A stretch of 64,000 bases of DNA from the NCBI RefSeq assembly GCF_030908245.1, contig NZ_JAVFJJ010000011.1, positions 62,001 through 126,000 of the forward strand, in the 5' to 3' direction. The notes under the pieces were generated by a model. The model did not search any database. It had not been told where the DNA came from and saw only the letters and a list, made by a program, of their open reading frames with translations. The translations under genes and the position numbers were made by a program. Positions 1 to 20,632 of the stretch are shown in pieces (positions within the stretch are counted from its first letter, which is position 1; every line of letters begins with the position of its first letter). This DNA is from Sinomonas sp. ASV322 (GTDB taxonomy: Bacteria; Actinomycetota; Actinomycetes; Actinomycetales; Micrococcaceae).

Positions 1-683
1 CGGGTGGACATCCCCTCCAGCACGAGGGCGCAGTCCTCCGCGCTGCGCGCGATGGGTCCGATGTGATCGAGTGTGTGGCTCACCGTGAGCACGCCGGAGC
101 CCGGGACCAGGCCGGCCGTCGGCTTGAGCCCCACGAGTCCGTTGACCGAGGCGGGGTTGCGCACGGATCCGCCGGTGTCGGTGCCGAGGGCCGCGGGGAC
201 GCTGCCGACCGCGACGGCGACGCCCGATCCTACGCTCGAACCGCCCGCATAGCGGCCCGGATCCCAGGGGTTCCGCGTGGGCGGCGTGCCCTGCCCGAAC
301 GCGAATTCGTGCGTCTGGAGCTTTCCGAGGATGACGGCGCCGCTCTCGCGGAGTCGCCGGACGGCCCCCGCGTCGCGGGCCGCGATGCGCCCGCGCAGCG
401 CGGCGGAGCCGCCTTCGGCGGGAAGGCCGCGCACGTCGATGACGTCCTTGACGCCGACGGGAACGCCCGTGAGCGGTCCCCCGCCGCCGCGACGCGCGAT
501 CCGGTCGGCCGTCCGCGCGGCGGCCCGGGCGCCGTCGGCGTCGACATGGGCCCATGCGCGCGCGAAGCCCTCCGTCGCGACGATGCGCTCCAGCACGGAG
601 TCGAGGAGCTCGACGGCGGAGAGCTCGCCGCCGCGGATCCTCCGCGCGGACTCCGCGACTCCCCACTCCCACGGCTCGGTCAT
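1..683 (-). CDS. Amidase signature family hydrolase (C-terminus beyond window)
   Basis: About 227 N-terminal residues of an amidase-signature enzyme, which hydrolyses carboxamides; the gene runs off the left edge. Reading the minus strand from ATG at 683 shows the whole catalytic core: Lys79 in VGVKDVID, the cis-Ser at about 149 in the segment GGSSVGSG, and the nucleophile Ser173 in [12 protein letters not shown], spaced as in the family. The start overlaps the stop of the upstream 66-residue ORF (ATGA), so the two are translationally coupled. The substrate cannot be named; GatA-like and AtzE-like amidases share this core. It is the last visible gene of a minus-strand group that starts with the amidohydrolase at 2250. 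Confidence 0.9.
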
Positions 684-880
684 TGGTCCCGGCCTTCCTC
701 GTGGGCGAGCAGGGGCGCGGCGTCGCGCCGCAGCCCCTCCATCGCGGCCCGGAAGTCGGCGTACGCCTCCGCGACGGCGGGCTCGTCCCGCCGCGCGACC
801 TCCTCGCCGACAAGCCGCTCGAGGACGCGGCGCTGCGCGGTCGAGAGGGGTTCGCGAGGCGCGTCTGCACTGCGGGTCAT
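680..880 (-). CDS. Small hypothetical protein coupled to the amidase
   Basis: A 66-residue acidic/basic helical protein with no recognised motif. It overlaps the amidohydrolase stop at its own start and the amidase start at its stop, both by 4 bases, so it is almost certainly translated. Some amidases work with a small GatC- or AtzG-like helical partner of this size encoded next to them. That role is a guess from position and length; the sequence does not show a clear GatC or AtzG signature. Confidence 0.6.
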   Translation of the reverse strand: MTRSADAPREPLSTAQRRVLERLVGEEVARRDEPAVAEAYADFRAAMEGLRRDAAPLLAHEEGRDQ

Positions 881-2250
881 CGGCGTGCTCCCGCCGTGAG
901 CTCCCCGTCGCGGACCACGGGCGCGCCGTCCACGAAGACGTGCCGCACGGTCCGGAGGTCGCGGGCGTCGGCGAGGACGACGTCGGCCGCGAACCCCGTG
1001 CGCAGCTCGCCGCGCCGCGTGGCGAGGCCCGGGATGGCGCGGGCGACGGCGCTCGTCGCCATCGCGACCGCACCGCCGAGCGTCCTGTGGCCGCGGGAGG
1101 CGACGTCCTGGACCGCGGCGATGAGCTCATCGTGGTCGCCGTCGTGGCCGTAGTCGGTCCCGAGCACCTGCACGAGATCGTCCTGTCCGAGGAGCGCGTC
1201 CCAGTGCTCTCGCGTCTCGACCGTGCGGCGCCGGTGGAGGAGGTCGAAGACGGAGGCCTCAGCGAGCCAGCCGTGCGCGCGGCCGAGCGCCGCGAGCTCG
1301 ACCGCCTCGCGGGGCGTGTGGGACGGATGGTTGGCGTGCCCCGCGATGACTCTCGCGCCACGGGCTGCGGGATCGCCCATGAGCTCCCGCAGGACCCGGG
1401 CCGTCGCGGAAGCGCTGTGGACGACGGCGGGCACGCCGAGGCGCGCGGCGGCCCGCACGCCCTCGCGGATCCCCTCGAGCGCCGGGGCGATGGACGGCAT
1501 GACCGTCGCTGAGACGAGGCCCGCTAGCTCGCCGATGTCGATCCGGCCGGCCAGCCCGGCGTCGCCCGCCGCCGCGGCGAGCGCTTCGGCGTCGACCGCG
1601 TCGGCATCCAGGAAGCGCCCGAGCACGGCCTCCTTGAGGCGGCGCGCCTGTGCCTGCGAGACCCGAACGCCTGTGCGGCGCTCGATCGCCTCCGGCAGGT
1701 ACACGAGGTCCTGCCCGCCGCCCCCGAGCGTCTGCCCGCCGCCGAGCTCGCCGATGGCGACAGCGCCGTCGTCGAGCATCTGCTCGACGCTGAGCTCCGC
1801 CTCGTGCCCGCGCAGCCCGCCGCCGTCGGCGCGTTGCGCGGCCGCGAGCGCGGACGGGAGATGCGTCGTGGCGCCTCGAACGTGAACGGCGTGGCGGCTG
1901 TCCGCCTCGCGGACCTGGTCCATCGTCGCGAAGCCGCACAGGCTCAGGACCGTCGTCGTGCCGGCGAGGAGGTGCCGGTCCAGGTGGCCGAGCCATTCCT
2001 CGTCGGGAAGGGCGGGCGCCGCGCTCGGGAACAACGGGCCGGGTGTGACCCCGTGGGTGTGGCAGTTGATGAGCCCCGGCATCACCATGAGCCCCGCCGC
2101 GTCGATGACTTCACCCTCGAAGCCGAGCGCGGAGTCCCAGCGGTCCAGGACCGCGTCGATCCTGCCGTCGGCGAGGACGAGCGCGCCACCCTCGATCGGC
2201 TCGTCCCCGGAGCCGGTGACGAGGGTGCCGCCGAAGATGAGCGTGGACAT
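877..2250 (-). CDS. Amidohydrolase superfamily, metal-dependent (imidazolonepropionase/chlorohydrolase-like)
   Basis: 457 residues with the usual layout of cyclic amidohydrolases: a beta-sandwich N-terminus (LIFGGTLVTGSGDEPIEGGALVLADGRI split over residues 4-31), the first metal motif HTH in the segment PGLINCHTHG near residue 63, further candidate ligands in VVHSAS (about 278), IAGHANH (about 303) and LGTDYGHDGD (about 365), and a C-terminal beta segment ending in VFVDGAPVV. Such enzymes hydrolyse ring amides, ureas or C-N bonds. ATG at 2250 is preceded by GGGAGG four bases upstream. The promoter carries the TATTATGAA/TTCATAATA element shared across the locus. The substrate is unknown; the neighbouring amidase, hydantoinase and deacetylase-fold enzymes suggest a ring-opening or deamination step. 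Confidence 0.85.
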   Translation of the reverse strand: MSTLIFGGTLVTGSGDEPIEGGALVLADGRIDAVLDRWDSALGFEGEVIDAAGLMVMPGLINCHTHGVTPGPLFPSAAPALPDEEWLGHLDRHLLAGTTTVLSLCGFATMDQVREADSRHAVHVRGATTHLPSALAAAQRADGGGLRGHEAELSVEQMLDDGAVAIGELGGGQTLGGGGQDLVYLPEAIERRTGVRVSQAQARRLKEAVLGRFLDADAVDAEALAAAAGDAGLAGRIDIGELAGLVSATVMPSIAPALEGIREGVRAAARLGVPAVVHSASATARVLRELMGDPAARGARVIAGHANHPSHTPREAVELAALGRAHGWLAEASVFDLLHRRRTVETREHWDALLGQDDLVQVLGTDYGHDGDHDELIAAVQDVASRGHRTLGGAVAMATSAVARAIPGLATRRGELRTGFAADVVLADARDLRTVRHVFVDGAPVVRDGELTAGARR

Positions 2251-2270
2251 CGCCCTCCCTGTGAAGTAGT

Positions 2271-2284: not shown

Positions 2285-2356
2285 GTTGCTTCACTATAAC
2301 CGGGGTAAGCCTCCCCGGGAATCCCTTCGAACACCTCGACGGAGAGGAAGCCAGCG

Positions 2357-3184
2357 GTGCCCGACATGCCCCCTCCACGCGATCTCATCGGCTACGGCGA
2401 GCGCCCGCCCGCGTTCGAGTGGCCCGGCGGATCACGGGTCGCCGTCTCGCTCGTGATCAACGTCGAGGAAGGCGCCGAACGGGCTATCGCCCCAGGCCAG
2501 GCCACCGTGTTCGACTACGGCGCGCGGGCGGGAATCTGGCGGATCCTGCGCATTCTCGACCGTCACGGCGTCAAGGCCACGGCGTTCTGCTGCGCGATGG
2601 CGCTCGAGGCCAACCCCGCGATCGCGGCTGCCCTCGTGGGACGCGGCTACGAGATCGCCGACCACGGCTACGGCTGGGACGCGCACGCCGGGCTCAGCGC
2701 CGAGGCCGAGCGCGAGCTCATCGTCGCCTCGCGGGACTCGATCGCGGCGACGACCGGGGCACGGCCCACGAGCTGGTATTCGAAGGACGGGCTCAACCCC
2801 CACACGCGCGGCGTGCTCGTCGAGGAGGGATTCGCGTACGAGTCGAACAGCTTCAACGACGATCTCCCGCACTGGGGCGCCGACGGCGCACGCTTCCCGG
2901 TTCTTCCCTACTCGGGCGACACGAACGATGCCGGCCTCATGAGCCAGTTCCCGACAGGCCAGGCGTTCGCCGACCATCTCATCGGCTGCCTCGACCTCCA
3001 GCTCGAGGACCCACGGCAGGGCCCCTCGGTCATGAGCGTCGGGCTGCATCCGCGCATCATCGGGCGCCCAGCCTACGCGGGCGCCCTCGACCGCTTCCTC
3101 GGCCACGCGACAAGTCGCGGCGCGTGGATCGCGACGCGGCACGAAATCGTCGAGGCGTGGCTGAGGCGCGCCGCCCGAACCTGA
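2357..3184 (+). CDS. Polysaccharide deacetylase-fold hydrolase (PuuE allantoinase-like), copy 1
   Basis: 275 residues of the NodB-homology fold in the branch that includes cofactor-independent allantoinase PuuE: the opening RDLIGYGERPPAFEWPGG, the VSLVINVEEGAE strand, the ATAFCCAMALE segment, EIADHGYGWD, and SVGLHPRIIGRP near the C-terminus. Members hydrolyse cyclic amides or N-acyl groups. GTG at 2357 follows GGAGAGGAAG by 6 bases, which fixes the start over the internal ATG at 2366. It is divergent from the amidohydrolase and shares its promoter region. A longer paralogue starts at 7346; this copy lacks the roughly 30-residue insertion (about 45-75) seen there. True allantoinase activity is not established. 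Confidence 0.85.
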   Translation: MPDMPPPRDLIGYGERPPAFEWPGGSRVAVSLVINVEEGAERAIAPGQATVFDYGARAGIWRILRILDRHGVKATAFCCAMALEANPAIAAALVGRGYEIADHGYGWDAHAGLSAEAERELIVASRDSIAATTGARPTSWYSKDGLNPHTRGVLVEEGFAYESNSFNDDLPHWGADGARFPVLPYSGDTNDAGLMSQFPTGQAFADHLIGCLDLQLEDPRQGPSVMSVGLHPRIIGRPAYAGALDRFLGHATSRGAWIATRHEIVEAWLRRAART

Positions 3185-3211: not shown

Positions 3212-3484
3212 CTACCTCGTTCGGTAGATCGAGTTTCGAGGCCCGATGTCGATGATGAGCATGACCATCGCCTCGTCATCGAGCCGATAGATCACCCGAA
3301 AATCGCCACGGCGAGCAGACCAATACCCTGAAAGCTCATTGCGGAGCTGATGTCCGCGGCGGCGCGGATTCTCGGCCAGAGATCCGAACGCGAAGGCCAA
3401 GAGCGGCTCGGCCACGCGCGGCGACAGGCTGGCAAGGCCCCTGAGCGCCGTAGCAGCGAGCCGCGGCTCGTAGGCCGCAGTCAC
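3212..3484 (-). CDS. RelE/ParE-family toxin
   Basis: 90 residues with the RelE fold: an N-terminal helix pair rich in Leu and Ala, then the strand-rich C-terminus with the hallmark segments GYWSARRGDFRVIYRLDD and VMLIIDIGPRNSIYR. RelE proteins cleave mRNA on the ribosome and are neutralised by their partner antitoxin. The start overlaps the stop of the upstream Phd/YefM-type antitoxin by 4 bases (ATGA), the usual order for this type II pair. The pair is convergent with the deacetylase-fold gene and appears inserted in an otherwise catabolic locus. Confidence 0.9.
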   Translation of the reverse strand: MTAAYEPRLAATALRGLASLSPRVAEPLLAFAFGSLAENPRRRGHQLRNELSGYWSARRGDFRVIYRLDDEAMVMLIIDIGPRNSIYRTR

Positions 3485-3765
3485 CGGCCGCGTTCGCGCA
3501 GTTCGCGGAGCATGGCAGCGGCCTGATCGGCCCCATAGGTGCGGCCTGCGACAATATCGGCCTCAGCGTCCGCGATCGTTTCCCGAATCCCGGGCTGCGA
3601 GAGCCAGAAGACAGTCTCCTCCATGGCTTCCCAGTCCTCCGCGGACACGAGGACGACGGCCGGGCGTCCATTGCGCGTGACCGTGTACCGCTCATGCTCC
3701 CGCTCGGCCCGGTCGGCGTATTCAGAGAGATGGGCCTTCAAATCGGACAAGGACGTCGTGACCAT
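3481..3765 (-). CDS. Phd/YefM-family antitoxin
   Basis: 94 residues: a DNA-binding Phd/YefM N-terminal domain (TSLSDLKAHLSEYADRAE, then RYTVTRNGRPAVVLVSAEDWEAMEET) and a C-terminal tail (about 55-94) that would wrap the toxin. It represses its own operon and blocks the RelE-type toxin encoded immediately downstream. An operator-like palindrome at 3778-3793 lies 12 bases before the start codon, as expected for autoregulation. Confidence 0.92.
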   Translation of the reverse strand: MVTTSLSDLKAHLSEYADRAEREHERYTVTRNGRPAVVLVSAEDWEAMEETVFWLSQPGIRETIADAEADIVAGRTYGADQAAAMLRELRERGR

Positions 3766-3777
3766 GCATCCATTTTA

Positions 3778-3814: not shown

Positions 3815-4564
3815 TCACGCTTCGAAGAGGCGGCCCCACCCCGGGGCCGGCCGGGCGGCGCCGGCGAGTCGGAGGAGCTTCCAGAGAGTTGCGACCGCGC
3901 TGTCAACCACGGGTACGCCGAACTCGCGCTCGAAGTCGGGCACGAGGTAGCCCGCGCGCAGATTCGTCCCGATGCACACGACCGCCTCGGCCTCGGGGAC
4001 AAACGCGGGGCGCATGAGGCACGCAATGTCCTCGGCGGGCAGGCGCGCAATCTCCGGGTTTGAGAGGACCGTTGGAGGAGTCGACGTCGCCACCACCTCG
4101 AGCCCCGAGCGGGCGTATTCTTCCGCGATGAGCTCGGCGATCGGCGCGGGTCCGGGGAAGACGACGGCGACACGGGACGCCCCAAGCTCGGCGAGGGCGT
4201 CGACGACAGCGAGGGACGCCGTCGTCGCCGGGGCCCCCGTCGCGTGGGCAAGGGACTCGCTTAGCTGCCTGTCGCCGTCGAGCCCTACCCAGCTTCCGGA
4301 CGTTCCGTGGAAGGCGACGGCGTCGAGCTCGGCGTCCGCGAGCATGCTCGGCGCGTCGCCGAGGACCGCGGCATCGATCGCGTCCCCGAGCTCAGGCGGG
4401 AGCCGGAAGCGGCTGCAGTGCACGCCGACGTCGGAGCGGTGCGCGAGGAGCGCGGCCGTGAGCGTCTCCGCGTTCGAGTTCGACGACGCGACGAGCATCC
4501 CGAGGCGGACGGCCGGCCCAGGGGCGCCTCCCGGCCCCGGGGCGCTCGGGCCGGGGCCCGTCAT
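3815..4564 (-). CDS. Asp/Glu racemase-fold protein of the maleate isomerase/arylmalonate decarboxylase family, both family cysteines replaced
   Basis: 249 residues of the two-domain Asp/Glu racemase superfamily, closest in motif layout to maleate cis-trans isomerase, EutA and arylmalonate decarboxylase: VRLGMLVASSNSNAE at the start, HGTSGSW at 86-92, a central VAVVFPGPAPIAELIAEEY, and CIGTNLRAGYLVPDFE followed by VPVVDSAVATLWKLLR. In maleate isomerases the two catalytic cysteines sit in CTSGS and CTNLR. Here both positions read Gly (G87 and G199), so classical two-cysteine isomerisation is not possible; arylmalonate decarboxylase keeps one. ATG at 4564 overlaps the regulator stop (TGATG). A longer in-frame reading to 4744 only covers the regulator gene and is rejected. 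Confidence 0.8.
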   Translation of the reverse strand: MTGPGPSAPGPGGAPGPAVRLGMLVASSNSNAETLTAALLAHRSDVGVHCSRFRLPPELGDAIDAAVLGDAPSMLADAELDAVAFHGTSGSWVGLDGDRQLSESLAHATGAPATTASLAVVDALAELGASRVAVVFPGPAPIAELIAEEYARSGLEVVATSTPPTVLSNPEIARLPAEDIACLMRPAFVPEAEAVVCIGTNLRAGYLVPDFEREFGVPVVDSAVATLWKLLRLAGAARPAPGWGRLFEA

Positions 4565-5202
4565 CAGTGCGCCCGGCCGAGCGACGGCGGCGTCGAGATC
4601 GCGATCATGACGGCGGCCGAATCGGTCCGGTTGTGCCACCAGTGCGGAAGCGACGAGTCGTACGTGAGGCTGTCCCCCGCCTCGAGGTGGAACTCTTGGC
4701 CGCCCACTGTCGCGACGAGAGACCCGGACTGCACGATGACGCACTCCTCGCCCTCGTGCGAGTCGGAGGAGTTCGCGCCGTCGAAATGCGCCGGGATCGT
4801 CATGCTCACGACGCCGAGCTTGCGTTCCGTGTCCGGGACGATGAGTTCCATGACGACGCCCTGCGACGGGATCTCGATGCGGCGCCGATCCGCGCGGCGC
4901 ACGAGCATGTTGTGACGCCCCCCGGGCGGCTCGTTGAACATGCTCGCGAGCGGGAGGTCGAGCGAGCTGGCGAGCCGGAGGAGCGTCGCGAAGGACGGGT
5001 TGCCGATCCCGCGCTCGATCTGGCTGATGAGCCCCGCGCTCACGCCCGCGCGTTCCGCGAGCTCTTCCACGGTGTATCGGCCGACGCGCTGTTCCCGGAT
5101 CGTGGCCCCGATCCGGGCGATCCAGAAGTCACGGTCGGGGGCCTCGCCGGTGGCGGTTCCGTTCCCGCCGACGCTCGCGGTGCCGTTCGGAGAGTCTCCC
5201 AC
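4564..5202 (-). CDS. XRE-cupin transcriptional regulator
   Basis: About 212 residues: a helix-turn-helix (RIGATIREQRVGRYTVEELAERAGVSAGLISQIERG) and a C-terminal cupin (SDSHEGEECVIVQSGSLV ... EAGDSLTYDSSLPHWWHN) that would sense a small ligand. GTG at 5202 is preferred because AAGGAG stands 6 bases upstream (5209-5214), with GGTACAAT as a -10-like box further up. An in-frame ATG at 5274 overlaps the aldolase stop by 4 bases but has no ribosome site and adds 24 non-conserved residues. A TTCAAT half-site of the locus element lies at 5213-5218, between the putative -10 and the GTG. This is the likely local regulator of the locus. Confidence 0.88.
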   Translation of the reverse strand: MGDSPNGTASVGGNGTATGEAPDRDFWIARIGATIREQRVGRYTVEELAERAGVSAGLISQIERGIGNPSFATLLRLASSLDLPLASMFNEPPGGRHNMLVRRADRRRIEIPSQGVVMELIVPDTERKLGVVSMTIPAHFDGANSSDSHEGEECVIVQSGSLVATVGGQEFHLEAGDSLTYDSSLPHWWHNRTDSAAVMIAISTPPSLGRAH

Positions 5203-5270
5203 GCAGGGCTCCTTCAATATGTCTCGGTTGGCGGCATTGTACCGAGCGGACGAGGACGTGACGCTGGTCG

Positions 5271-5996
5271 TCATATGGATCGTGACGCGGCGTATCCCGC
5301 GAGCAGCGTCGCGAGCTCTCGCTCCCAGTAGACCGCGCAGCGGTCGGCCCCTCGGTCGAAGACCTCGCGGGCGCGGGCCATCGACGGAGCAGGCAGCCCC
5401 ACGCTGTGCCCGGCCTCGCGGAGGGTCTCGACGACGGACTGCATGGCCTTGTCCAGATAGTCCGGATCCGTCCGGCCCTCTCGGTGCAGATCGGCCGCGA
5501 GGTCGGTCGGCCCGAGCCAGCCCCCGCCGAACGCCTCGAGCGCCACGAATTCTTCGGCGATGGCCACGGCGTCGACGGTCTCGAACAGGACGCTGAGCAA
5601 TGGCGCGCGGCTGAAGTCCGAACCGAAGCCCGACGCCGGGGAGACCTGCCGCGAGCGCAGGCCGCGCGGTGAGTACGTGATCGCCTCATACGCGCGCTCG
5701 AGCTCGCCAACGTTCCTCAGGTGCGGGAGCACGAGCTCGTCGGCGCCCGTGTTCGCAAAGGCCACGAGCGTGTTGGGCTGGATGTCCGGGACGCGCACCG
5801 AGACCCTCACTCCCGTCCCGCGCAGCCGCTGGACGACGTCGGCGCACGCCTGGACGCCCAGCGGCGTCTGCTCGGCGTCCAGGACGACGAAGTCGATGTG
5901 GGCGTGCGCAAGGACGGCGAAGAGCGTGGGGCTCGTGTCTGCCGTGATGACGCCGACGGCGCGGCCGGCCTCCTGCGGCGTACGGATCTCATTCAT
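5271..5996 (-). CDS. HpcH/HpaI-family class II aldolase-like protein
   Basis: 241 residues of the HpaI/2-dehydro-3-deoxyglucarate aldolase family, which cleaves 2-keto-4-hydroxy acids into pyruvate and an aldehyde. Visible family marks are DFVVLDAEQTPLG at about 35-47, the metal-binding Glu in SVLFETVDAV and Asp in GGWLGPTDLAADL. The family normally reads D-x-E-H in the first motif, the histidine being the catalytic base; here it is Gln, which argues for reduced or changed activity. It lies between the cupin and the regulator on the same strand, overlapping the cupin end by 8 bases. Confidence 0.85.
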   Translation of the reverse strand: MNEIRTPQEAGRAVGVITADTSPTLFAVLAHAHIDFVVLDAEQTPLGVQACADVVQRLRGTGVRVSVRVPDIQPNTLVAFANTGADELVLPHLRNVGELERAYEAITYSPRGLRSRQVSPASGFGSDFSRAPLLSVLFETVDAVAIAEEFVALEAFGGGWLGPTDLAADLHREGRTDPDYLDKAMQSVVETLREAGHSVGLPAPSMARAREVFDRGADRCAVYWERELATLLAGYAASRSI

Positions 5997-6426
5997 CGTG
6001 GACGAACTCCCAGTCGGCCGGCTTGCTCACGCCGACGACGAGGTCGACCGGCGTATCCGTGTCATTCCACGCGCCGTGGCTGAGGCCGCGCGGGATATAG
6101 ATTCCGTCGCCTGGTTTGGCGCGGTATTCCTCGCCCCCGAGGAAGACGAGCGGGGTCCCCGAGATGACGACATAGAACTCGGACGCGTCGGGGTGGTGGT
6201 GGCACAGGTGCCGCTGGCCGGGAAGGATCCGCCCCCAGCTGATGCAGAGATCATCCGAATCGCTCAGGTCGCGCGAGATGAGCGTCGAGACGAGGCCTTG
6301 GTCGCGCTGCCCGCTCAGGCCCACGCGGTTGAGCTCTTGAAAGCCCTGCTCGTGGACGTTGTGGACGAGCTTCGCAAGATCTGCGGTGCGCGGTGCGTCA
6401 GTGCGCTGGTCGCTCGACGCGTTCAC
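5989..6426 (-). CDS. Single-domain cupin protein
   Basis: 145 residues with one cupin domain: ISWGRILPGQRHLCHHHPDASEFYVVISG supplies the first motif (three His and a Glu) and GDGIYIPRGLSHGAWN the second. GTG at 6426 overlaps the stop of the upstream deacetylase-fold gene (GTGA), so the extra 30 residues of the longer reading (to 6516) are rejected. Cupins of this kind bind a metal and act as isomerases, lyases or small-ligand binders. Its substrate is presumably an intermediate of the locus. Confidence 0.82.
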   Translation of the reverse strand: MNASSDQRTDAPRTADLAKLVHNVHEQGFQELNRVGLSGQRDQGLVSTLISRDLSDSDDLCISWGRILPGQRHLCHHHPDASEFYVVISGTPLVFLGGEEYRAKPGDGIYIPRGLSHGAWNDTDTPVDLVVGVSKPADWEFVHDE

Positions 6427-7346
6427 GAGGCCACGCCCTCGAAGACACCCCGCGGCTGGTCGGCGGGTGCATGGTCGAGCCACCACCGTGCGATCTCCTC
6501 GCGCGTCGCAAACCACACGCCGGCCTGCGAGCCCGCGTACTCGAGGAAGCGGCGCACGCCATGCGCGACGCTGGGCCGCCCGCCAATCCGCAGGTGGATC
6601 CCGACCGACATCATCTTGGGGACCTCCTCGCCCTCATGGAGGAGGCAGTCGAGCGTGTCCTTCAGGACACTGAAGAAATCGGCTCCTGTCCCGAGGCTCC
6701 CGGGCCCCCAGAAGCGTCCGTCGTTCGTGTCCCCCGCGTAGGGGAGGACGAGGTGGCGCGCGCTTCCCGCCTGGACGAAGTACGGGAGATCGTCGGCGTA
6801 GGAGTTCGAGTCATAGAGGAAGCCCTCTTCGGCGAGGATGGCCCGGGTGTTCTCGGTGATGTCCTCGCGCACGTACCAGCCGACGGGTGTCACGCCCGCG
6901 GTGGCCTCGATCGCGGCCCGCGCGGCACGGATCTCGGCCCGCTCTTCGTCGGGGGTCATCCCTGCGAGCCCGCGCCAGCGGTAGCCGTGGGCGCATATCT
7001 CGTGCCCGTCGCGGGCGATGGCGCGGGCGGCATCGGGATTCTTCTCGAGCGCGGCCCCGCAGGCCATGAAGGTCGCCGGAACGCCGTACTCGCGCAGCAT
7101 CGCGAGATAGCGCCACACGCCGACGCGCGGCCCGTACTCGAAGAACGATTCCTTCATGAGGTTGCGCTTCGACGGGTCCGAGGACCAGCCACCGAAGATC
7201 ACGATGTCCTCGTCCGCTTCGTCGCCGGAGGCGATGGACCGCTCGGCCCCCTCTTCGTAATTGACGACGACGGAGACGGCCACCTTTGCGCCGCCCGGCC
7301 ATTCGACCACGGGAGGGTTCTCCCCGTATCCGATGAGATCTCTCAT
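6423..7346 (-). CDS. Polysaccharide deacetylase-fold hydrolase (PuuE allantoinase-like), copy 2
   Basis: 307 residues, the same family as the protein starting at 2357 and sharing its opening (RDLIGYGENPPVVEWPGG) and ending (MMSVGIHLRIGGRPS). Residues about 45-75 (FGGWSSDPSKRNLMKESFFEYG) match PuuE-type allantoinases and are missing in copy 1. Further motifs are PATFMACGAALEKNP, HEICAHGYRW and EEGFLYDSNSYADDLPY. ATG at 7346 has GAGGAG 6 bases upstream. It heads the run deacetylase-cupin-aldolase-regulator-racemase fold, each coupled by short overlaps, with operator copy 2 at 7373. Confidence 0.88.
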   Translation of the reverse strand: MRDLIGYGENPPVVEWPGGAKVAVSVVVNYEEGAERSIASGDEADEDIVIFGGWSSDPSKRNLMKESFFEYGPRVGVWRYLAMLREYGVPATFMACGAALEKNPDAARAIARDGHEICAHGYRWRGLAGMTPDEERAEIRAARAAIEATAGVTPVGWYVREDITENTRAILAEEGFLYDSNSYADDLPYFVQAGSARHLVLPYAGDTNDGRFWGPGSLGTGADFFSVLKDTLDCLLHEGEEVPKMMSVGIHLRIGGRPSVAHGVRRFLEYAGSQAGVWFATREEIARWWLDHAPADQPRGVFEGVAS

Positions 7347-11369: not shown

Positions 11370-11390
11370 GGTCTAAACACCGGATTTCTT

Positions 11391-11450
11391 GGGTGGGGTG
11401 GGTGGGGGAAGAGCGGGTGGGGTGGGTGGGGCGGGTGGGGCGGGTGGGTG
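11391..11450 (+). repeat. G-run repeat (possible G-quadruplex)
   Basis: About 60 bases made of GGGTGGGG, GGGTGGGC-type units with more than eight G-runs of three or longer on the plus strand, in the gap (11370-11542) between the substrate-binding gene and the type A MBL gene. Four-run G-quadruplex folding is possible many times over. The adjoining 11458-11520 holds looser repeats of GTGCAAA and ACGGGGTG. Confidence 0.8.
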
Positions 11451-13263: not shown

Positions 13264-13266
13264 GGG

Positions 13267-14322
13267 TCACATCGTCGGCGCGACGATAGGGCGGGCCCGG
13301 CGGCGGGGGCGCAGCGCGACACCGCGGGCCCGCGGATCGAGCAGCGTGATGAGCACGTCGAGGATGACGTAGCCGAACAGGCTCGTCGCCCCCATCACCA
13401 GGACGAAGCCCTGGATGACGGGCATGTCTCCCTTGAGGACGCCGTCGAGCGACCACCCGCCCACGCCCGGCCACGAGAAGACGCTCTCGATGATCGCGGC
13501 CCCGCTCAGGGCCGCCGCGAACAGCAGCACCATGTACGTCATGAGGGCCGCCCGGACGTCGCTCAGGGCGTAGCGGTACACCTGGAAAGGCCGGAGGCCG
13601 CACGCCCTCGCGAATTCGATCTGCGGGGAATGGAGGATCTGCAGGAGCCCGGTGCGGACGGTCTTCCCGAAGGGCGCCGCAAAGAAAAACCCCATGGTGA
13701 CAATCGGGAGCGCTGCCCGGCTGAAGACCGAGCCCAGGATCTTCCATTTCCCGGCGATCACAGCATCCACGAGCACGGAACCCGTCACCTTGGGCGGCGG
13801 AATATCGGCGCTCGCGAGCATTCCGAGCGGCGCCGGCGCAAGATGCAATTGCTGATAGAAGATAAACAGCAGCAGAAGCGCGAGCACGAATTCGGGCATC
13901 GCCATGAGCACTGAGACGCCGGCCGTGAAGGTCTTGTCCGGCAGCCGCCCGCTCCGATACGCGGCGAACGTCCCCATCGCGACGCCGAGGAGGAGCGCGA
14001 GGACGAGGCCCGGGACGAGATAGACGAGCGTGTTGGGCAGGCGCGTCCACAGTTCTTGGGCGACCGGCGTGCCCGTGAAGAACGAATGGCCCAGATCGCC
14101 CGTGATCGTGCGCCCGAGGTAGTCGAGGTACCGGTCCCAGACGGGCTTATCGAGCCCGAGCTCGCCGTGGATGCGGGCAATATCGTCTGGCGTCGCATAC
14201 TCGCCGAGAAGGGCGACGGCGGGGTCCCCGGGGAGGAGGGACACGAGCCCGAAGCTCAGGGTCATGAGTCCGAGGAGAAGGCCGACGGCGATGCCCAGCC
14301 GCGAGGCGATGTACCGGATCAT
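13267..14322 (-). CDS. ABC importer permease, DppB/OppB type
   Basis: 351 residues with an N-terminal membrane segment (RYIASRLGIAVGLLLGLMTLSFGLV split around 4-28), then the long periplasmic loop with GDPAVALLGEYATPDDIARI and LGLDKPVWDRYLDYL, and five further hydrophobic segments. The EAA-type cytoplasmic loop is seen in LQILHSPQIEFARACGLRPFQVYRYALSD. It forms the channel with the DppC-type permease. The start overlaps the ATPase stop (ATGA). Its C-terminus is followed by the promoter of the MBL pair. Confidence 0.92.
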   Translation of the reverse strand: MIRYIASRLGIAVGLLLGLMTLSFGLVSLLPGDPAVALLGEYATPDDIARIHGELGLDKPVWDRYLDYLGRTITGDLGHSFFTGTPVAQELWTRLPNTLVYLVPGLVLALLLGVAMGTFAAYRSGRLPDKTFTAGVSVLMAMPEFVLALLLLFIFYQQLHLAPAPLGMLASADIPPPKVTGSVLVDAVIAGKWKILGSVFSRAALPIVTMGFFFAAPFGKTVRTGLLQILHSPQIEFARACGLRPFQVYRYALSDVRAALMTYMVLLFAAALSGAAIIESVFSWPGVGGWSLDGVLKGDMPVIQGFVLVMGATSLFGYVILDVLITLLDPRARGVALRPRRRARPIVAPTM

Positions 14323-15194
14323 GCGTTGGCCTCCTGGGTGGTGGGAAGGAGTGGCCCGGACCCGTCGCCCGCCGAGGCGAACGCGCCGTCGTCGTCCGGC
14401 GAAATGTCCGGCGGGATGTAGGGAAGAGCCGGCATCGCGGCCGCCATGAGCGCCTGCGTGTAGGCCTGCATGGGGTTGTCGAGCACGTCGAGCGCCGGTC
14501 CCGTCTCGACGAACCGCCCGCGATGCATGACCGCGACTTTCGAACAGAAGTGCCTCACGGTCTCGATGTCATGCGAGATGAAGACATAGGTGAGCCCACG
14601 GGCGCGCTGCAGTTCCGAGAGCTTCCGCAGGATCGAAGCCCGGATCGTGAGGTCGAGTGACGACGTCGGCTCGTCGAGCACGACGATGCTCGGATCCGTG
14701 ACAAGTGACCGGGCGATGCCGACGCGCTGCTGCTGCCCGCCGCTCAGGTTCGCCGGGCGGCGGTCGAGGAACTGGGCCGAGAGGCCCACCTCGTCAAGCG
14801 TTCTCTCGACCTTCTCGAGCCGCTCAGCGCGCGACGCGCAGAGCTTCGAGACGACGAGCGGCTCCTCGACGATCTGGCGCACCGTGAGGCGCGGATTGAG
14901 CGACGCGAACGGCTCCTGGAACACGATCTGCCAGTGGCGGCGCTTCCGCCGGAGCGCTCGCGGCGCGAGAGCCCGGACGTCCTGCCCGTCGAGCAGGATG
15001 GAGCCCGAATCCGCCTCGTGCAGCCGCAGGAGGAGGCGGCCGAGCGTCGACTTGCCTGAGCCGCTCTCGCCGATGATCCCGAGGCATTCGCCAGCCTCGA
15101 CGTCGAACGAGACCCCGTCGACCGCCGTCAGGACGCGGCCTTGAGGGGTCTGGAACGTCTTGCGCAGATCCTTCACTTCGATGATGGGCATCAC
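14319..15194 (-). CDS. ABC importer ATPase, DppF/OppF type
   Basis: 291 residues: Walker A GESGSGKST, Q-loop IVFQEPFASLNPR, signature NLSGGQQQRVGIARSL, Walker B SIVVLDEPTSSLD and switch His in ISHD. It powers the peptide/opine-type importer with the second ATPase encoded just upstream. The oligopeptide-ATPase C-terminal extension (ALDVLDNPMQAYTQALMAA) is present. It overlaps both neighbours by 4 bases. Confidence 0.94.
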   Translation of the reverse strand: MMPIIEVKDLRKTFQTPQGRVLTAVDGVSFDVEAGECLGIIGESGSGKSTLGRLLLRLHEADSGSILLDGQDVRALAPRALRRKRRHWQIVFQEPFASLNPRLTVRQIVEEPLVVSKLCASRAERLEKVERTLDEVGLSAQFLDRRPANLSGGQQQRVGIARSLVTDPSIVVLDEPTSSLDLTIRASILRKLSELQRARGLTYVFISHDIETVRHFCSKVAVMHRGRFVETGPALDVLDNPMQAYTQALMAAAMPALPYIPPDISPDDDGAFASAGDGSGPLLPTTQEANA

Positions 15195-16072
15195 GCGCCC
15201 CCTGTCTCGGACATCGCGGCCTCGACGGGCTGCACTCGGTCAGATGGCCCCGCGGCCCTAGCGGCCTCCGCGGCGTTGGGGGACTCCGCGGGCCGCGCGA
15301 CAGACCTGAGCAGCGAGGCGGTGTACGGGTGTTCGGGCGCGGTGAAGACCCGCGACACCGCCCCCTGCTCGACGAGGTTCCCGCGGTACATCACGAGGAC
15401 GCGGTCACAGTACTCGGCCACGACCCCGAGGTCGTGGGTGACGATGAGCATGGACCGTCCGCTCCCGCTCGTCAGCTTCCGGAGCGTGTCGAGAACCTGC
15501 CGCTGGACGGTGAGGTCGAGCGCCGTCGTCGGCTCATCGGCGATGACGAGCCGCGGATTGAGGTAGAGCGCCATGGCGATGACGACGCGCTGCGCCATCC
15601 CGCCGCTCAGCTCGTGCGCGTAGCCGCGGATCACGCGTTCCGGCTCATTGACGCCGGTCGCCTCGAGCAGGGCCACGGCCCGCTCGCGCGACGCAGCGTC
15701 GGCGCGGACGCCGTGCGCCTTCGCGATGTTCGCGAACTGCTTCTCGAGTCGCAGCACGGGGTTGAGCGCGCTGAACGGATTCTGGGCGACGAAGCCGATG
15801 TCCCGCCCCCGGAGCTCGCGCATGCGCCGCTCGGGCAGGTCGAGCAGCGCTCGCCCGTCGAACACGACCGATCCCTCCGCCACGCGCCCAGGCGGCACGA
15901 GCAGCCGCGTGATCGAGCGGACGACCGTCGACTTGCCCGACCCCGACTCCCCGACGATGCCCACGATCTCCGTCTCGCCGACGTCGAACGAGATCCCATG
16001 GAGCGCCCGAACGGCGCCGCCGCGCGCCGCGAATTCGGTGACGAGCCCGCGCACCTCGAGCCCCGCCGTCAT
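15191..16072 (-). CDS. ABC importer ATPase, DppD/OppD type
   Basis: 293 residues: Walker A VGESGSGKST, IGFVAQNPFSALNPV, signature ELSGGMAQRVVIAMAL, Walker B RLVIADEPTTALD, VTHDLGVVAEYCDRVLVMYRG, and the C-terminal EQGAVSRVFTAPEHPYTASLL typical of DppD. ATG 16072 overlaps the permease stop (ATGA); the much longer in-frame reading to 16906 only traverses the permease gene. Confidence 0.94.
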   Translation of the reverse strand: MTAGLEVRGLVTEFAARGGAVRALHGISFDVGETEIVGIVGESGSGKSTVVRSITRLLVPPGRVAEGSVVFDGRALLDLPERRMRELRGRDIGFVAQNPFSALNPVLRLEKQFANIAKAHGVRADAASRERAVALLEATGVNEPERVIRGYAHELSGGMAQRVVIAMALYLNPRLVIADEPTTALDLTVQRQVLDTLRKLTSGSGRSMLIVTHDLGVVAEYCDRVLVMYRGNLVEQGAVSRVFTAPEHPYTASLLRSVARPAESPNAAEAARAAGPSDRVQPVEAAMSETGGA

Positions 16073-16956
16073 CGTGCACGCTCCACGCGCTCGATGCGGT
16101 TCTCGAGGGCACCCGCGAGGATGTTGAGCGAGCCGATCGCGAGGAGCATCGCGGCGGTCGGGAAGGCCGAGGCCCACCAGTCGCCGCGGATGAGCATGCT
16201 GAAGCCGTCCGCGATCATGCCGCCCCAGCTCGGCTGCGGCGGCTTTGCCCCGACCCCCAGGAAGTTGAGGGCCGCGATGGTGCCGAGGGCGTTCGCGGCG
16301 GTGAGGGTGGCCTGGACCAGCACGACGCCGTAGGCGTTGCGGAACACGTGGTTGAACGCGACTCGCAGCGGTGAGCATCCCGTCGCGACCGCCGCCTCGA
16401 CGTAGCGCGCCGAGCGCAGCGTGAGCGCCGCAGCGCGCGAGAGGCGCACGAAACGCGGCGCGCCGACGACGGCGATCGCGATGACGACATCGAGCACCGA
16501 ACCGCCCATGAGCTGGATGCCGACGACGGCGATCACGACCGTCGGCAGTGCGGCGAACGCGTCGACGACGCGCATGAGGGCGTCGCCGACGCGGCCGCTC
16601 GTGGCGAAGAGGCCGAGCGGCACGCCGACGACGAGGGCCAGGACAGTCGCTCCGATCGCGATCGGGAGGTCGAGCTTGGCGGCTTCGATCGTGCGGGAGA
16701 AGACGTCCATCCCGTTGCCGTCCGTGCCGAACCAGTACGTGGCATTCGGGGCGACGCTGATCGCGTTGGGGTCTGGCCTGAGGGGGCTGTGGGGGTACGG
16801 CATGACGAGGGCCAGAAGGGGGAGGCCGAGGATCACGGCGGCCGCCACGACGGTCACGGCCAGATGAGACCTCGAGAAGACCACGGCCCTCCCGCGCTTC
16901 GCCCAATCGGCGACGCGCAGGCCCGGAGACGTGCGCGGTATTCCCTGAACGCTCAT
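16069..16956 (-). CDS. ABC importer permease, DppC/OppC type
   Basis: 295 residues: an N-terminal soluble stretch, a first membrane helix (LAVTVVAAAVILGLPLLAL), the family loop ATYWFGTDGNGMDVFSRTIEAAKLDL, then five membrane segments and the EAA loop EAAVATGCSPLRVAFNHVFRN. It heads the importer operon after a 30-codon small ORF whose stop overlaps this ATG (ATGA). No Shine-Dalgarno precedes ATG 16956 itself, so expression may depend on that coupling. Confidence 0.93.
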   Translation of the reverse strand: MSVQGIPRTSPGLRVADWAKRGRAVVFSRSHLAVTVVAAAVILGLPLLALVMPYPHSPLRPDPNAISVAPNATYWFGTDGNGMDVFSRTIEAAKLDLPIAIGATVLALVVGVPLGLFATSGRVGDALMRVVDAFAALPTVVIAVVGIQLMGGSVLDVVIAIAVVGAPRFVRLSRAAALTLRSARYVEAAVATGCSPLRVAFNHVFRNAYGVVLVQATLTAANALGTIAALNFLGVGAKPPQPSWGGMIADGFSMLIRGDWWASAFPTAAMLLAIGSLNILAGALENRIERVERAR

Positions 16957-17045: not shown

Positions 17046-17069
17046 GCGGACTCCTTGAATCAAAGCGTC

Positions 17070-17083
17070 ATCACTTTATTGAA
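17070..17083 (-). promoter_or_regulatory. Operator copy 4, importer side
   Basis: On the minus strand TTCAATAAAGTGAT; 12 of 14 bases equal the copy at 17233. It lies 25 bases upstream of the small ORF that leads the importer operon, at the expected -10 region. The rest of the 16957-17295 gap has no other gene. Confidence 0.5.
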
Positions 17084-17210: not shown

Positions 17211-17246
17211 TTGACAGGCCTCCAACGCCATCTTCAATATAGTGAC
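17211..17246 (+). promoter_or_regulatory. Promoter with operator copy 5, aminotransferase operon
   Basis: -35 TTGACA (17211-17216), 18-base spacer, -10-like CAATAT (17235-17240). The element TTCAATATAGTGAC (17233-17246) covers the -10, a repressor-like placement. The aminotransferase ATG follows at 17296 with GGAAGAGGAG at 17276-17285. Confidence 0.6.
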
Positions 17247-17295: not shown

Positions 17296-18267
17296 ATGTC
17301 GACGCTGCGCGAAGAAGCGCTCTTGGCCACGCCACAGCCGGCCCCCGCTACGCCGAAGGTCCGGTATCTCCTGCACGACGGCGAGCTCGTCGAGTACGCC
17401 GACGCCCGGCTGCACGTCCTCAGCACGACGCTCAAATACGGCGTCGGCGTCTTCGAAGGCTTCCGCGCCTATTGGAGCGAGGACGAGCAGCAGCTCTACG
17501 CGTTCCGCGTAGGCGACCACATGCGCCGACTCGTCGACTCGATGCGCGTCGTCGAGATCGACGGCCCGCAGGACGTCGACGTCCTCACCGAGCAGCTCCT
17601 CGGCCTCGTCCGCGCGAATGGGCTGCGCAGCAACCTGCACATGCGCGCCCAGGTCTTCGTCGATTCGAGCGACGGCAAGCCCGAGGACACCGGGCCCTCG
17701 ACCGTGTTCATGGCCGCGATCCCCATGGGCAACTACTTCGGCGCGACCGGCCTCGACATGCAGATCAGCAGCTGGGCCCGCCTTTCGGACCGCTCGATGC
17801 CTCCGCGCATCAAATCCATCGCCAACTATCAGAACGGGCGCCTCGCCATGCTCGAGGCGCGGCGGAACGGCTACGACGCCGCGCTCCTCATGACCGAGTC
17901 CGGCCACGTCGCCGAGGGCGCGGGCTACAACGTCTTCATGGTGCGCAAGGGCCGGCTGTGCACGCCTCCCACGACGGACAGTATCCTCGAGGGCATCACG
18001 CGGGACAGCGTCCTGCACCTCGCGCGCACCGAACTCGGGCTCGACGTCGACATCCGGCCCATCGACCGCACGGAACTCTACTCCGCGGACGAGGTCTTCG
18101 TCTGCGGGAGCGCGGCCGAGGTCAACCACGTCAAGTCGGTCGACCGGACGCCGATCGGCACGGGCGCCGTCGGCGAGCTCACGGCGCGGCTCCAGCGGCT
18201 CTACCTCGACGCCGTCGTCGGGCGCGCCGCCTCGGACCAGGGCTGGGCGCAGCCCGTCTACGCGTAG
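17296..18267 (+). CDS. Class IV aminotransferase (branched-chain/D-amino acid type)
   Basis: 323 residues of the fold-IV PLP aminotransferases: YLLHDGELVEYADARLHVLS, KYGVGVFEGFRAY (IlvE-like), the PLP lysine K173 in RIKSIANYQNG, the cofactor Glu in HVAEGAGYNVFMVRKG and the TPPTTDSILEGITRDSV segment. It transfers an amino group to or from a branched-chain or similar 2-oxo acid. Its position, first in an operon with formamidase and hydantoinase, suggests it handles the amino acid released by the pathway rather than biosynthesis. Confidence 0.9.
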   Translation: MSTLREEALLATPQPAPATPKVRYLLHDGELVEYADARLHVLSTTLKYGVGVFEGFRAYWSEDEQQLYAFRVGDHMRRLVDSMRVVEIDGPQDVDVLTEQLLGLVRANGLRSNLHMRAQVFVDSSDGKPEDTGPSTVFMAAIPMGNYFGATGLDMQISSWARLSDRSMPPRIKSIANYQNGRLAMLEARRNGYDAALLMTESGHVAEGAGYNVFMVRKGRLCTPPTTDSILEGITRDSVLHLARTELGLDVDIRPIDRTELYSADEVFVCGSAAEVNHVKSVDRTPIGTGAVGELTARLQRLYLDAVVGRAASDQGWAQPVYA

Positions 18268-18277
18268 GCCTGCCGAC

Positions 18278-19192
18278 ATGGGCCAGTCCCCCGAAATCGG
18301 CCATCTACCCCACGCAGGCTTCGCCTATGCCGGATTCGACCACGCCTCGGCGGTGTTCACCGCCCTCGCCGAACCCGTCCTCGAGGTCGAGCAGGGCGAG
18401 CGCTTCGCCCTCGAGGCGCGGAGCCTCCTGACCGGCGGATTCTTCGAGGCGGGCGAGTACGAGAAGTGCTCGATCCCGGTGACGGGACCCGTCGTCGTCC
18501 GCGGCGCGCGCCCCGGCGACGCGCTCCGCGTCGAGATCCACGACATCCGCATCGCCAGCCGCGCCGCGATGGTGACGCTTCCCGGGCGTGGCGGGTTCGG
18601 CGCGCCCCTCGAGCGTTACGGTCACGTCGTCGAGATCGACGACGGCGGGGTCCGCTTCGACGACGGCGTCACCATCCCCGTCCGGCCCATGGTGGGCAAG
18701 CTCGGCGTGGCGCCCGCTGAGGGCGAGCCGAGCTCGAGCACCGTCGGCCCCTACGGCGGCAACATGGACTGCAACGATGTCACGGCCGGCTCGGCCGTCG
18801 TCCTTCCGGTCCAGGTCTACGGCGCGCGGCTCTTCGCGGGCGACCTCCACGCCGCGCAGGGCGACGGCGAGTGCTCCCTCACGGGCGTCGAGGTCGAGGG
18901 CACGGTGACGCTCTCGTGCCGCGTGATCCCGGGTGTCTCGGTCCGGCGTCCGGTCGTCCTCTCCGGCGGCCACGTGATCACGATCGGCGACGGCGACGAC
19001 CTAGACGCCGCAGCCCAGGCGGCCCTCGACGATCTCCTCGAGCTCGTCGTCGCAGACCGGGGCTGGCCCCGCGAAAAGGCGGCGATGCTGCTCAGCGCGG
19101 CGGCCGACGTCGCGGTCTCCCAGCTCGTCAACGCACGCGCGTCCGTCAAGGCGAGCCTCGCCGAGCGCTACTTCTCTCGTGTCCCCTTCTAG
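18278..19192 (+). CDS. Acetamidase/formamidase family protein
   Basis: 304 residues of the FmdA/AmdA family: GPVVVRGARPGDALRVEIHDI, GPYGGNMDCNDVTAGSAVVLPV, and the metal/active-site block GARLFAGDLHAAQGDGECSLTGVEVEG, followed by HVITIGDGDDLDAAAQAALDDLLEL. These enzymes release ammonia and a carboxylate from short amides such as formamide, consistent with mineralising a ring-derived amide. It starts 10 bases after the aminotransferase stop and is followed by the hydantoinase after 15 bases. Confidence 0.92.
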   Translation: MGQSPEIGHLPHAGFAYAGFDHASAVFTALAEPVLEVEQGERFALEARSLLTGGFFEAGEYEKCSIPVTGPVVVRGARPGDALRVEIHDIRIASRAAMVTLPGRGGFGAPLERYGHVVEIDDGGVRFDDGVTIPVRPMVGKLGVAPAEGEPSSSTVGPYGGNMDCNDVTAGSAVVLPVQVYGARLFAGDLHAAQGDGECSLTGVEVEGTVTLSCRVIPGVSVRRPVVLSGGHVITIGDGDDLDAAAQAALDDLLELVVADRGWPREKAAMLLSAAADVAVSQLVNARASVKASLAERYFSRVPF

Positions 19193-19207
19193 ATCTGGAG
19201 GCTTTCC

Positions 19208-20632
19208 ATGCTCGATCTCCTGCTGACCAACGGCGTGGTCGTCACGCCGTCCGGCGCCCGCCGACTCGACGTCGGGATCGCCGGCGGCACGATTGTCTCG
19301 CTCACCGCGCCCGAGTTCGGCGCCCCCGCCGAGGCCCGCCGCACGGTCGACCTCCGCGGCCAGCTCGTGGTGCCCGGCGGCGTCGACCCGCACGTCCACA
19401 CCAACAGCGTTCTGCCGACGGCCGCCGAGAGCGGCATCGTGTGCTTCGGTCCCGACCGCGTGAGCGAGGGCGCAATCTACGGCGGCACGACGACGCTCGT
19501 CGACTTCGCGCACTGGCAGCCAGGGGACGAGCTGTCCGAGTCATTTGCTCGGAAGTCAGCCGAGTGGGCCGGGAACACGTTCACGGACTACGCGCTCCAC
19601 GGGACGTTCAAGGAGCCCGAGATCCCGTTCGAAGTGCTCGAGCAGATCCCCGACGCCGTTGCCGCAGGCCACGGCAGCTACAAGGTCTGGATGACCAATA
19701 CGACGCCGACACGACCGCGCCAGAAGACCGACCTCGGCAACATGTGGGGCCTCATGGAGCAGACCGCCGCAGCCGGCGCGATGCTCGCGGTCCACGCCGA
19801 GGACGACGACATCGTCATGTACTCCTACAAACGGCTCGAGCGCGCGGGGCGCACCGGCCTCGAGTACATGTCCCACGCGCACAACAATCTGTCGGAGAAG
19901 CTCTCGTTCCAGCGGGCCATCACCCTAGCCGAGCACGTCGGCGCGCCGATCTACCTCATGCACGTGAGCGCGCGCGAGGGCGTCGACGCGATCCGCGACG
20001 CGCGCGGCCGCGGGCTGCCCGTGTACGGCGAGGTGCTCCCGCACTACGCGCATTTCACCGCCGAGGACTACCGCCAGGAGAACGGGGCGATCTACCACAC
20101 GTACCCGTCGCTCAAGTCGGCCGACGACCGCGACTCGATGTGGGACGCGCTCCTCGAAGGCGTGCTCAGCACGCTCGCGACCGACGGCGTGTGCACCGAC
20201 CTCGACGTCAAGACGCGCGGCAAGACGATCTTCGACGCGACCGGCGGCCACGCGGGCGTCGAGATGCGCATGGCCGTCGCGTACACGGAGGGCGTCGCGA
20301 AGCGCGGACTCGACCTGACGCGGTTCGTGGACCTCACCTCGGCGAACGCCGCGAAGATCCTGGGCCTGTACCCGCGCAAGGGGGCGATCGCGATCGGGAG
20401 CGACGCCGACCTCGCCGTCCTCGACACGATGGACGCCCGCCGGATCACCGCGTCCGACCTGCACGAGGCCGACTACACCCCGTGGGAGGGCTACGAGGTC
20501 GCGGCATGGCCCAGCATGACGGTGCTGCGCGGGTACGTGATCGTCGAGGACCGGGAGCTCAAGGCAGGGCCGCTCGGCACGCTGCTCACCCAACGGGTCT
20601 CGAGTGACGTCCGGAGCCGTCCGGCCTGCTGA
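19208..20632 (+). CDS. D-hydantoinase/dihydropyrimidinase
   Basis: 474 residues with all ligands of the binuclear zinc site: H62 and H64 in DPHVHT, the carboxylated K159 in GSYKVWMTNTTP, H196 in LAVHAEDDD, H252 in YLMHVSAREG and D326 in LATDGVCTD. The family opens six- and five-membered cyclic amides (dihydropyrimidines, hydantoins) to N-carbamoyl acids. ATG 19208 follows TGGAGG. Together with the isochorismatase-type hydrolase and formamidase it is the clearest pointer to a cyclic-imide substrate. Confidence 0.93.
   Translation: MLDLLLTNGVVVTPSGARRLDVGIAGGTIVSLTAPEFGAPAEARRTVDLRGQLVVPGGVDPHVHTNSVLPTAAESGIVCFGPDRVSEGAIYGGTTTLVDFAHWQPGDELSESFARKSAEWAGNTFTDYALHGTFKEPEIPFEVLEQIPDAVAAGHGSYKVWMTNTTPTRPRQKTDLGNMWGLMEQTAAAGAMLAVHAEDDDIVMYSYKRLERAGRTGLEYMSHAHNNLSEKLSFQRAITLAEHVGAPIYLMHVSAREGVDAIRDARGRGLPVYGEVLPHYAHFTAEDYRQENGAIYHTYPSLKSADDRDSMWDALLEGVLSTLATDGVCTDLDVKTRGKTIFDATGGHAGVEMRMAVAYTEGVAKRGLDLTRFVDLTSANAAKILGLYPRKGAIAIGSDADLAVLDTMDARRITASDLHEADYTPWEGYEVAAWPSMTVLRGYVIVEDRELKAGPLGTLLTQRVSSDVRSRPAC

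Follow-up and report, generated by a model that had tools for sequence, protein, structure and literature searches.

Many metallo-β-lactamase (MBL)-fold enzymes encoded near catabolic genes are hydrolases, and in flavodiiron proteins the ligand set is H-x-E-x-D-H...H...D...H. The hydantoin utilisation (hyu) operons of Arthrobacter combine a hydantoinase with amide hydrolases. PMC4390876 describes canonical and non-canonical partners for the cyanobacterial flavodiiron proteins Flv3/4 with Flv1/2. Here we analyse a stretch of 64,000 nucleotides from Sinomonas sp. ASV322 (NCBI RefSeq assembly GCF_030908245.1, contig NZ_JAVFJJ010000011.1, positions 62,001 to 126,000), referred to as the window. 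At its left end, an island of about 20 genes looks, from its sequence, built to import and dismantle a nitrogen-rich ring compound. Its four MBL-fold proteins are, judged by sequence, two copies of one two-gene module, MBL-A/MBL-b. We see about an even chance that the whole is a single-regulon, sporadically distributed catabolic island with the import, ring-opening and metal/O2 steps proposed below.

Gene content and conservation of the island

The window was mapped from its open reading frames (ORFs) with Pfam and NCBIfam family scans. All enzyme families listed in an earlier note on this DNA, made from the letters alone, are present, as are the importer and the XRE-cupin regulator; that inventory missed the arylmalonate decarboxylase (AMDase)/EutA-like protein at 3815–4564, and its amidase gene extends 690 bases beyond the left window edge. 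From left to right, the amidase, a small ORF and an amidohydrolase lie on the minus strand, followed by PuuE1, which is divergent on the plus strand, and a ParE/YefM pair on the minus strand. The central minus-strand run carries the AMDase/EutA-like protein, the XRE-cupin regulator, an HpcH/HpaI-like protein, a cupin, PuuE2, MBL-A2, MBL-b2, an isochorismatase-fold hydrolase (ISO) and a substrate-binding protein (SBP), and continues through MBL-A1, MBL-b1, a permease, two ATPases and another permease. The aminotransferase, FmdA/AmdA and hydantoinase (HYD) genes follow on the plus strand. The family 5 SBP, two permeases and two ATPases make up a complete Opp/Dpp-type importer. For conservation, a genome collection was scanned with the MBL-A alignment, yielding 51 loci; 15 of these (L020–L034) and a plasmid locus (L014) are the 16 cluster loci, in which MBL-A1 is present by construction and best matches were counted at 43% identity or more. 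The features are:

1–683, minus: amidase-signature hydrolase, N-terminal part (whole gene −690 to 683; L010:1310-2683); Pfam Amidase 309.5 bits
680–880, minus: 66-residue ORF between amidase and amidohydrolase; ORF call, 44–45% match in L014 and L029
877–2250, minus: amidohydrolase; Amidohydro_1 35.8 bits, cut-off 25; 16/16 cluster loci
2277–2295, minus: promoter motif AGTGAWGNNRCTTYGATAT in the amidohydrolase/PuuE1 divergent region; motif scans
2357–3184, plus: PuuE1, PuuE/polysaccharide-deacetylase family; TIGR03212 215.6 bits, below the cut-off of 424.6
3216–3768, minus: ParE-like toxin and Phd/YefM antitoxin, between PuuE1 and the EutA-like gene; Pfam scan
3815–4564, minus: AMDase/EutA/maleate-isomerase superfamily protein, both catalytic-Cys positions Gly; family scans, structure and orthologue alignments
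4564–5274, minus: XRE-cupin regulator, PuuR-like but below cut-off; Pfam/NCBIfam scans
5271–5996, minus: HpcH/HpaI-like protein, catalytic His replaced by Gln; Pfam scan, alignments
5989–6426, minus: cupin; Pfam scan, 16/16 cluster loci
6423–7346, minus: PuuE2, nearest solved relatives PuuE allantoinase structures; NCBIfam scan, structure search
7398–8327, minus: MBL-A2, start uncertain; Pfam scan, alignment
8324–9085, minus: MBL-b2, degenerate partner; Pfam scan, similarity, alignment
9094–9768, minus: ISO, BiuH/RutB-like but below cut-offs; Pfam/NCBIfam scans, structure alignment
9780–11369, minus: SBP, family 5; Pfam/NCBIfam scans
11543–12358, minus: MBL-A1, HxExPH, flavodiiron/ODP-type core (ODP, oxygen-binding diiron protein); Pfam scan, alignment, fold model
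12367–13227, minus: MBL-b1, same fold as MBL-A1, metal site degraded; similarity to MBL-b2, fold
13267–14322, minus: permease B; Pfam/NCBIfam scans
14319–15194, minus: ABC ATPase; Pfam/NCBIfam scans
15191–16072, minus: second ABC ATPase; ABC_tran in a longer ORF, orthologues in other loci
16069–16956, minus: permease C (permC); NCBIfam scan
17059–17083, minus: permC promoter motif, AGTGATGACGCTTTGAT overlapping TTCAATAAAGTGA; motif scans
17233–17245, plus: TTCAATATAGTGA at the aminotransferase promoter; motif scans
17296–18267, plus: class IV aminotransferase, IlvE-like; above NCBIfam cut-offs
18278–19192, plus: FmdA/AmdA family amidase, ~300-residue type; Pfam scan, alignment
19208–20632, plus: hydantoinase/dihydropyrimidinase (HYD); Pfam/NCBIfam scans, structure alignment

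The earlier note named a failure of the genes to be conserved together as the finding that would count against it. Gene order is identical in 14 of the 16 cluster loci and the other two (L029, L033) retain most genes; because the genes are conserved together across loci, their grouping is not chance. The amidohydrolase, HpcH-like protein, cupin, PuuE2, all four MBL genes, ISO and aminotransferase are matched in 16/16 loci, the EutA-like protein, XRE regulator, SBP, both permeases, both ATPases and FmdA in 15, and PuuE1 and HYD in 14 (PuuE1 is fragmented in L034; L029 and L033 end short of HYD). The low counts for the amidase (3/16) and the small ORF (2/16) arise because 13 loci stop before these genes. 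L029 keeps the order except for an inverted importer, 47–57% alike, and L033 is rearranged, its 11.9 kb giving no match to the importer, PuuE1, the EutA-like gene or the XRE regulator. Several genes of Hiyo8 (L034) match in broken frames, through sequencing error or decay, and so do the HYD and aminotransferase of StoSoilB13 (L014 8471–9893 and 10873–11815), through error or decay.

The cluster is found in Sinomonas, Arthrobacter, Microbacterium and one Microbacteriaceae metagenome-assembled genome (MAG). Its distribution is sporadic: MBL-b1 relatives are carried by 3 of 15 genomes from the genus, by 1 of 297 sampled from the order and by 3 of 396 from a phylum sample, each count including the own genome. 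The right flank differs in the 14 cluster loci that reach past HYD. The sporadic distribution, the plasmid copy and the differing right flank together suggest horizontal spread of the island. The GC content of the cluster (0.695) equals that of the rest of the window (0.696; 0.718 in the 20 kb to the left), and there is thus no compositional sign of recent import.

Smaller features accompany these genes. The 66-residue ORF gave no match in a Pfam scan; it may resemble AtzG/GatC-like small subunits. In a tblastx search of L020–L035 (16 loci), the ParE/YefM pair had no convincing counterpart, only short scattered weak matches in L032. A G-rich GGGTGGG tract at 11390–11450, directly upstream of the SBP start, is a possible G-quadruplex. 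To the right of the cluster lie a class II glutamine amidotransferase-like gene (NCBIfam scan; matched in 0/16 cluster loci) and an RlmN-like gene (by eye), both of which look unrelated.

Shared promoter motifs

The pattern AGTGAWGNNRCTTYGAT is common to the amidohydrolase and permC promoters, 14.8 kb apart; it was derived from these promoters and their orthologues, which makes its two exact matches a matter of construction. With up to two mismatches, the 19-bp motif occurs at only two sites in the window against 0.24 expected, a number reached by 3 of 100 shuffles. The 4.34-Mb genome contains two exact matches and one with a single mismatch, and a reversed-pattern control gave none. The 13-bp TTCAATAWAGTGA is found twice in the genome, at the aminotransferase and permC promoters only. 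Among 17 orthologous loci, scanned with no shuffle control, the 19-bp form (up to two mismatches) appears in 14, at both promoters in seven, and the 13-bp form (up to one mismatch) in 16. Two promoters so far apart thus have in common a 17-bp motif that is matched exactly nowhere else in the genome, which suggests that both belong to one regulon, and we infer that the XRE-cupin protein binds the predicted sites. An initial operator scan used GTGAAGNNNNTTC; it found 9 matches where 7.3 were expected, and the longer motif replaced it.

The motif bears on whether the block is one pathway or a depot of at least two, with a ureide/pyrimidine wing beside an amidase/PuuE1/EutA wing that scavenges another substrate. 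The 20.8-kb Amycolatopsis locus L035 is divided in this way: it has the permeases, ATPases, amidase, amidohydrolase, PuuE1, EutA-like protein, XRE regulator and one MBL pair, and no matches to ISO, HYD, FmdA, the aminotransferase, PuuE2, the cupin or HpcH. The two PuuE proteins and two MBL pairs also resemble parallel sets, and in the MBL tree the distance from copy 1 to copy 2 is similar to its distance to other families, with copy 2 grouping with L035. However, both the window and 7 of the 17 orthologous loci have the motif on each wing, and gene order is kept in 14 of 16. We regard a depot as rather unlikely.

The MBL-A/MBL-b pairs

Pfam Lactamase_B matches three of the four MBL proteins; MBL-b1 has no significant Pfam match and is placed by its similarity to MBL-b2 and by its fold. 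Four MBL-fold proteins had been counted in the earlier note, and four are present, but as two copies of a flavodiiron-like A/b module and not as independent hydrolases. MBL-A and MBL-b are adjacent, in either order, in 56 of 57 loci; the loci come from actinobacteria, alphaproteobacteria and a single MAG that bears the label Bacillota. They are partly dependent: L017 and L019 represent one pair, present on two plasmids of a single strain, L039 and L041 overlap on a shared contig, and L051 and L068 are near-identical. Nine truncated or frameshifted matches were excluded from residue counts, and H7 of the seven plasmid matches was left out of examination. The 0.8-kb ORF that separates A from b in L065 is unlikely to be a real gene, and no natural A-b fusion was flagged in the 57 loci.

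In fold models, MBL-A and MBL-b both have flavodiiron proteins or ODP as their best matches, with an MBL core of flavodiiron topology. The carboxylate-rich MBL-A site reads H-x-E-x-P-H...D...D...H. In the alignment with FprA, where the FprA ligand letters are visible, the flavodiiron ligand Asp corresponds to Pro88 (72/73 sequences) and the FprA His to D149 (Asp in 73/73). MBL-A is 240–290 residues long from match start to stop, and the Pfam scan found no flavodoxin domain in the window's four MBL proteins. Against Pfam ODP (PF19583), MBL-A scores 25.3 and 22.2 bits, below the gathering score of 27.2. The metal ligands are not kept in MBL-b, which has R85 in 74/74 sequences, E87 in 73, Asp or Glu at 89 in 74, C90 in 59 and the last His in 21. 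Its pocket residues R85 and W224 are both kept in 74/74, so MBL-b is not drifting. A mirror-tree comparison of A and b gave r 0.89 (largest of 500 permutations, 0.08), a correlation that is expected for linked genes and not proof of contact. The copy-1 clade of MBL-A has a support of only 0.57. A joint alignment of all A and b rows was left unused, as the b rows fell on the A half.

From these features we tentatively read MBL-A/b as an unrecognised two-subunit, flavodoxin-free class derived from flavodiiron proteins, a reading we would not call probable. It would carry out O2-dependent ring chemistry in many actinobacterial and alphaproteobacterial catabolic pathways, and would be present twice here for a cyclic ureide, with A probably an iron site and b a substrate-binding pseudo-site. 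Alternatively, each pair could be an ordinary zinc hydrolase (a lactonase, a cyclic amidase or an esterase), with b no more than a scaffold, and the island purely hydrolytic. Hydrolases are common among MBL-fold enzymes in such settings, the cluster is without a recognised reductase, and the Lactamase_B matches point the same way. Yet flavodiiron sites are the closer likeness for the Glu at the second ligand position and for the Asp that stands where flavodiiron proteins have His. Flavodiiron proteins and ODP also give the best folds, though fold likeness shows no function, and b, with its invariant pocket residues, is not drifting. We give zinc hydrolysis a substantial chance, short of even.

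Neighbours of MBL pairs elsewhere were surveyed for selected genes only, and they fit small-acid and aromatic or heterocycle catabolism. An HpcH/HpaI protein with the usual E-H lies near the pair in Roseomonas (L016, L053), TctC receptors adjoin it in L037, L041, L047, L055 and L060, and an AMDase-like gene directly follows it in L047. FAD_binding_3 genes are near the pair in Nocardia (L065), where an importer, ISO and HYD accompany it, and in Actinomadura (L051); further neighbours are Aldolase_II and luciferase-like genes. In Actinomadura L051 and L068, two consecutive b-A pairs are followed by an Opp importer, and PEP-mutase/ICL-family and FAD_binding_3 genes lie upstream of the pairs in L051. 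Relatives of the amidohydrolase (38–40%) on rhizobial and Pelagibacterium plasmids (L074, L075, L076) adjoin genes for response regulators, together with MmgE/PrpD and ornithine cyclodeaminase genes. Next come a TauD dioxygenase and an ABC importer in L074 and L075, where the block lies between conjugation genes in an opine-like arrangement.

Proposed pathway and comparison with known systems

HYD, whose nearest solved relative is a D-hydantoinase, keeps the metal-ligand His residues, the Lys that is carbamylated in hydantoinases and the Asp (alignment with 1nfg; conserved in 13/13 sequences, window included), and scores 308.5 bits, below the NCBIfam D-hydantoinase cut-off of 393.25. ISO is nearest to biuret hydrolase/RutB-type enzymes, with scores below the NCBIfam cut-offs, and has the Asp-Lys-Cys triad of that isochorismatase fold (6azo alignment; 17/17 in the orthologue alignment). 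PuuE2 aligns over residues 2–294 of 307 with the PuuE-type structure 1z7a. Relatives of the amidase in the PDB include GatA, 6c62 (named biuret hydrolase) and malonamidase E2, and the FmdA protein aligns with the ~300-residue acetamidase type. The affinities of PuuE2, HYD and ISO would also suit a variant allantoin/purine or pyrimidine degradation cluster. Against such a cluster, a separate AllB allantoinase is encoded elsewhere in the genome, both PuuE-like proteins miss the NCBIfam PuuE allantoinase cut-off of 424.6 (PuuE2 305.8, PuuE1 215.6 bits), and no urate, ureidoglycolate or further Rut genes were recognised in the block. We consider it improbable.

In class II HpcH/HpaI aldolases, the His of the E-H-x-P motif is catalytic. 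The HpcH-like protein has Gln at this position in 17/17 sequences, window included, where the GarL structure 1dxe has His, and a canonical aldolase reading was set aside. Arylmalonate decarboxylase uses a single catalytic Cys (Cys188). Its relative here has Gly at both catalytic-Cys positions in 16/16 sequences, and an invariant Cys precedes the second position by two residues; maleate-isomerase, hydantoin-racemase and AMDase readings were likewise set aside. Because both proteins have lost defining residues, the final carbon cleavage put forward in the earlier note should not be assumed. The other steps it proposed, uptake, ring opening and deamidation, fit the families, the dedicated importer and the HYD, ISO and PuuE2 evidence.

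Gene content, conservation, motifs, residues and the fold model are the basis of the following pathway, from which we infer substrate, step order, complex and chemistry. The local XRE-cupin protein would sense a ligand and control the island promoters. The importer would take up a cyclic ureide or amide, hydantoin- or dihydropyrimidine-like and possibly with a side chain; a hydantoin-like cyclic ureide is our best guess. HYD and the PuuE-type proteins would open rings, ISO, the FmdA-type amidase and the amidase would strip carbamoyl or amide nitrogen, and the IlvE-like aminotransferase would transaminate the freed amino acid. The two A/b modules would perform a non-hydrolytic step, most likely metal/O2-dependent oxidation of the ring or product, with site-degraded MBL-b presumably the subunit partner of MBL-A. 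Possible ligands of the HpcH-like and AMDase-like proteins are keto-acid or malonate-like intermediates, though the chemistry of these two proteins is probably altered.

Several observations weigh against this proposal. The window's cluster yielded no recognisable reductase or ferredoxin gene, an argument against a monooxygenase. The NCBIfam scan took in the cluster enzymes apart from the amidase, and among the matches listed the aminotransferase alone exceeds a cut-off. The A-b tandem model has a pTM of 0.59, so the complex is not confidently predicted and a heterodimer interface taken from it was rejected as unusable. Of the 17 orthologous loci, L031, L033 and L035 gave no match to the 19-bp motif and L035 none to the 13-bp motif either, and the counts there carry no chance control. 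The substrate is named by none of the nearest solved structures, the plasmid contexts of amidohydrolase and EutA-like relatives (rhizobial, Pelagibacterium, Caballeronia NK8) or the MBL-pair neighbours.

The island is a defined unit of about 20 genes with a shared promoter motif, in strains such as Sinomonas gamaensis NEAU-HV1, and would represent a new route of organic-nitrogen breakdown in soil. Within it, the A/b pair is a protein module that lacks annotation; should it prove to be an oxygenase, it would add a class of enzyme to a fold whose known roles are mainly hydrolysis and O2/NO reduction. The novelty of both rests on the open PubMed Central (PMC) literature and family libraries: no description of the module was found in that literature, nor, as the earlier note had it, any characterised operon with this content, a narrow test.

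Among described systems, the flavodiiron proteins (FprA, ROO, flavorubredoxin and the Flv1/Flv3 and Flv2/Flv4 heterodimers) have the MBL-core fold in common with MBL-A and MBL-b. In contrast to them, MBL-A has no flavodoxin domain, carries Pro88 for the ligand Asp and Asp149 for the ligand His, and is encoded with b among catabolic genes. The partner logic is like that described for the cyanobacterial Flv heterodimers in PMC4390876. Relative to ODP, MBL-A falls below the Pfam cut-off, has altered ligands, adjoins b in 56/57 loci and stands in a catabolic, not a chemotaxis, context. With PuuE allantoinase and the HxnM-type cyclic imidase the likeness lies in PuuE2, which aligns nearly full length with the PuuE-type 1z7a; unlike them, the island has two divergent copies below the NCBIfam cut-off, with AllB elsewhere in the genome. 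The hyu operons of Arthrobacter share a hydantoinase and amide hydrolases with the island, which differs in having no recognised catalytic-Cys hydantoin racemase or M20 carbamoylase and in its many extra genes.

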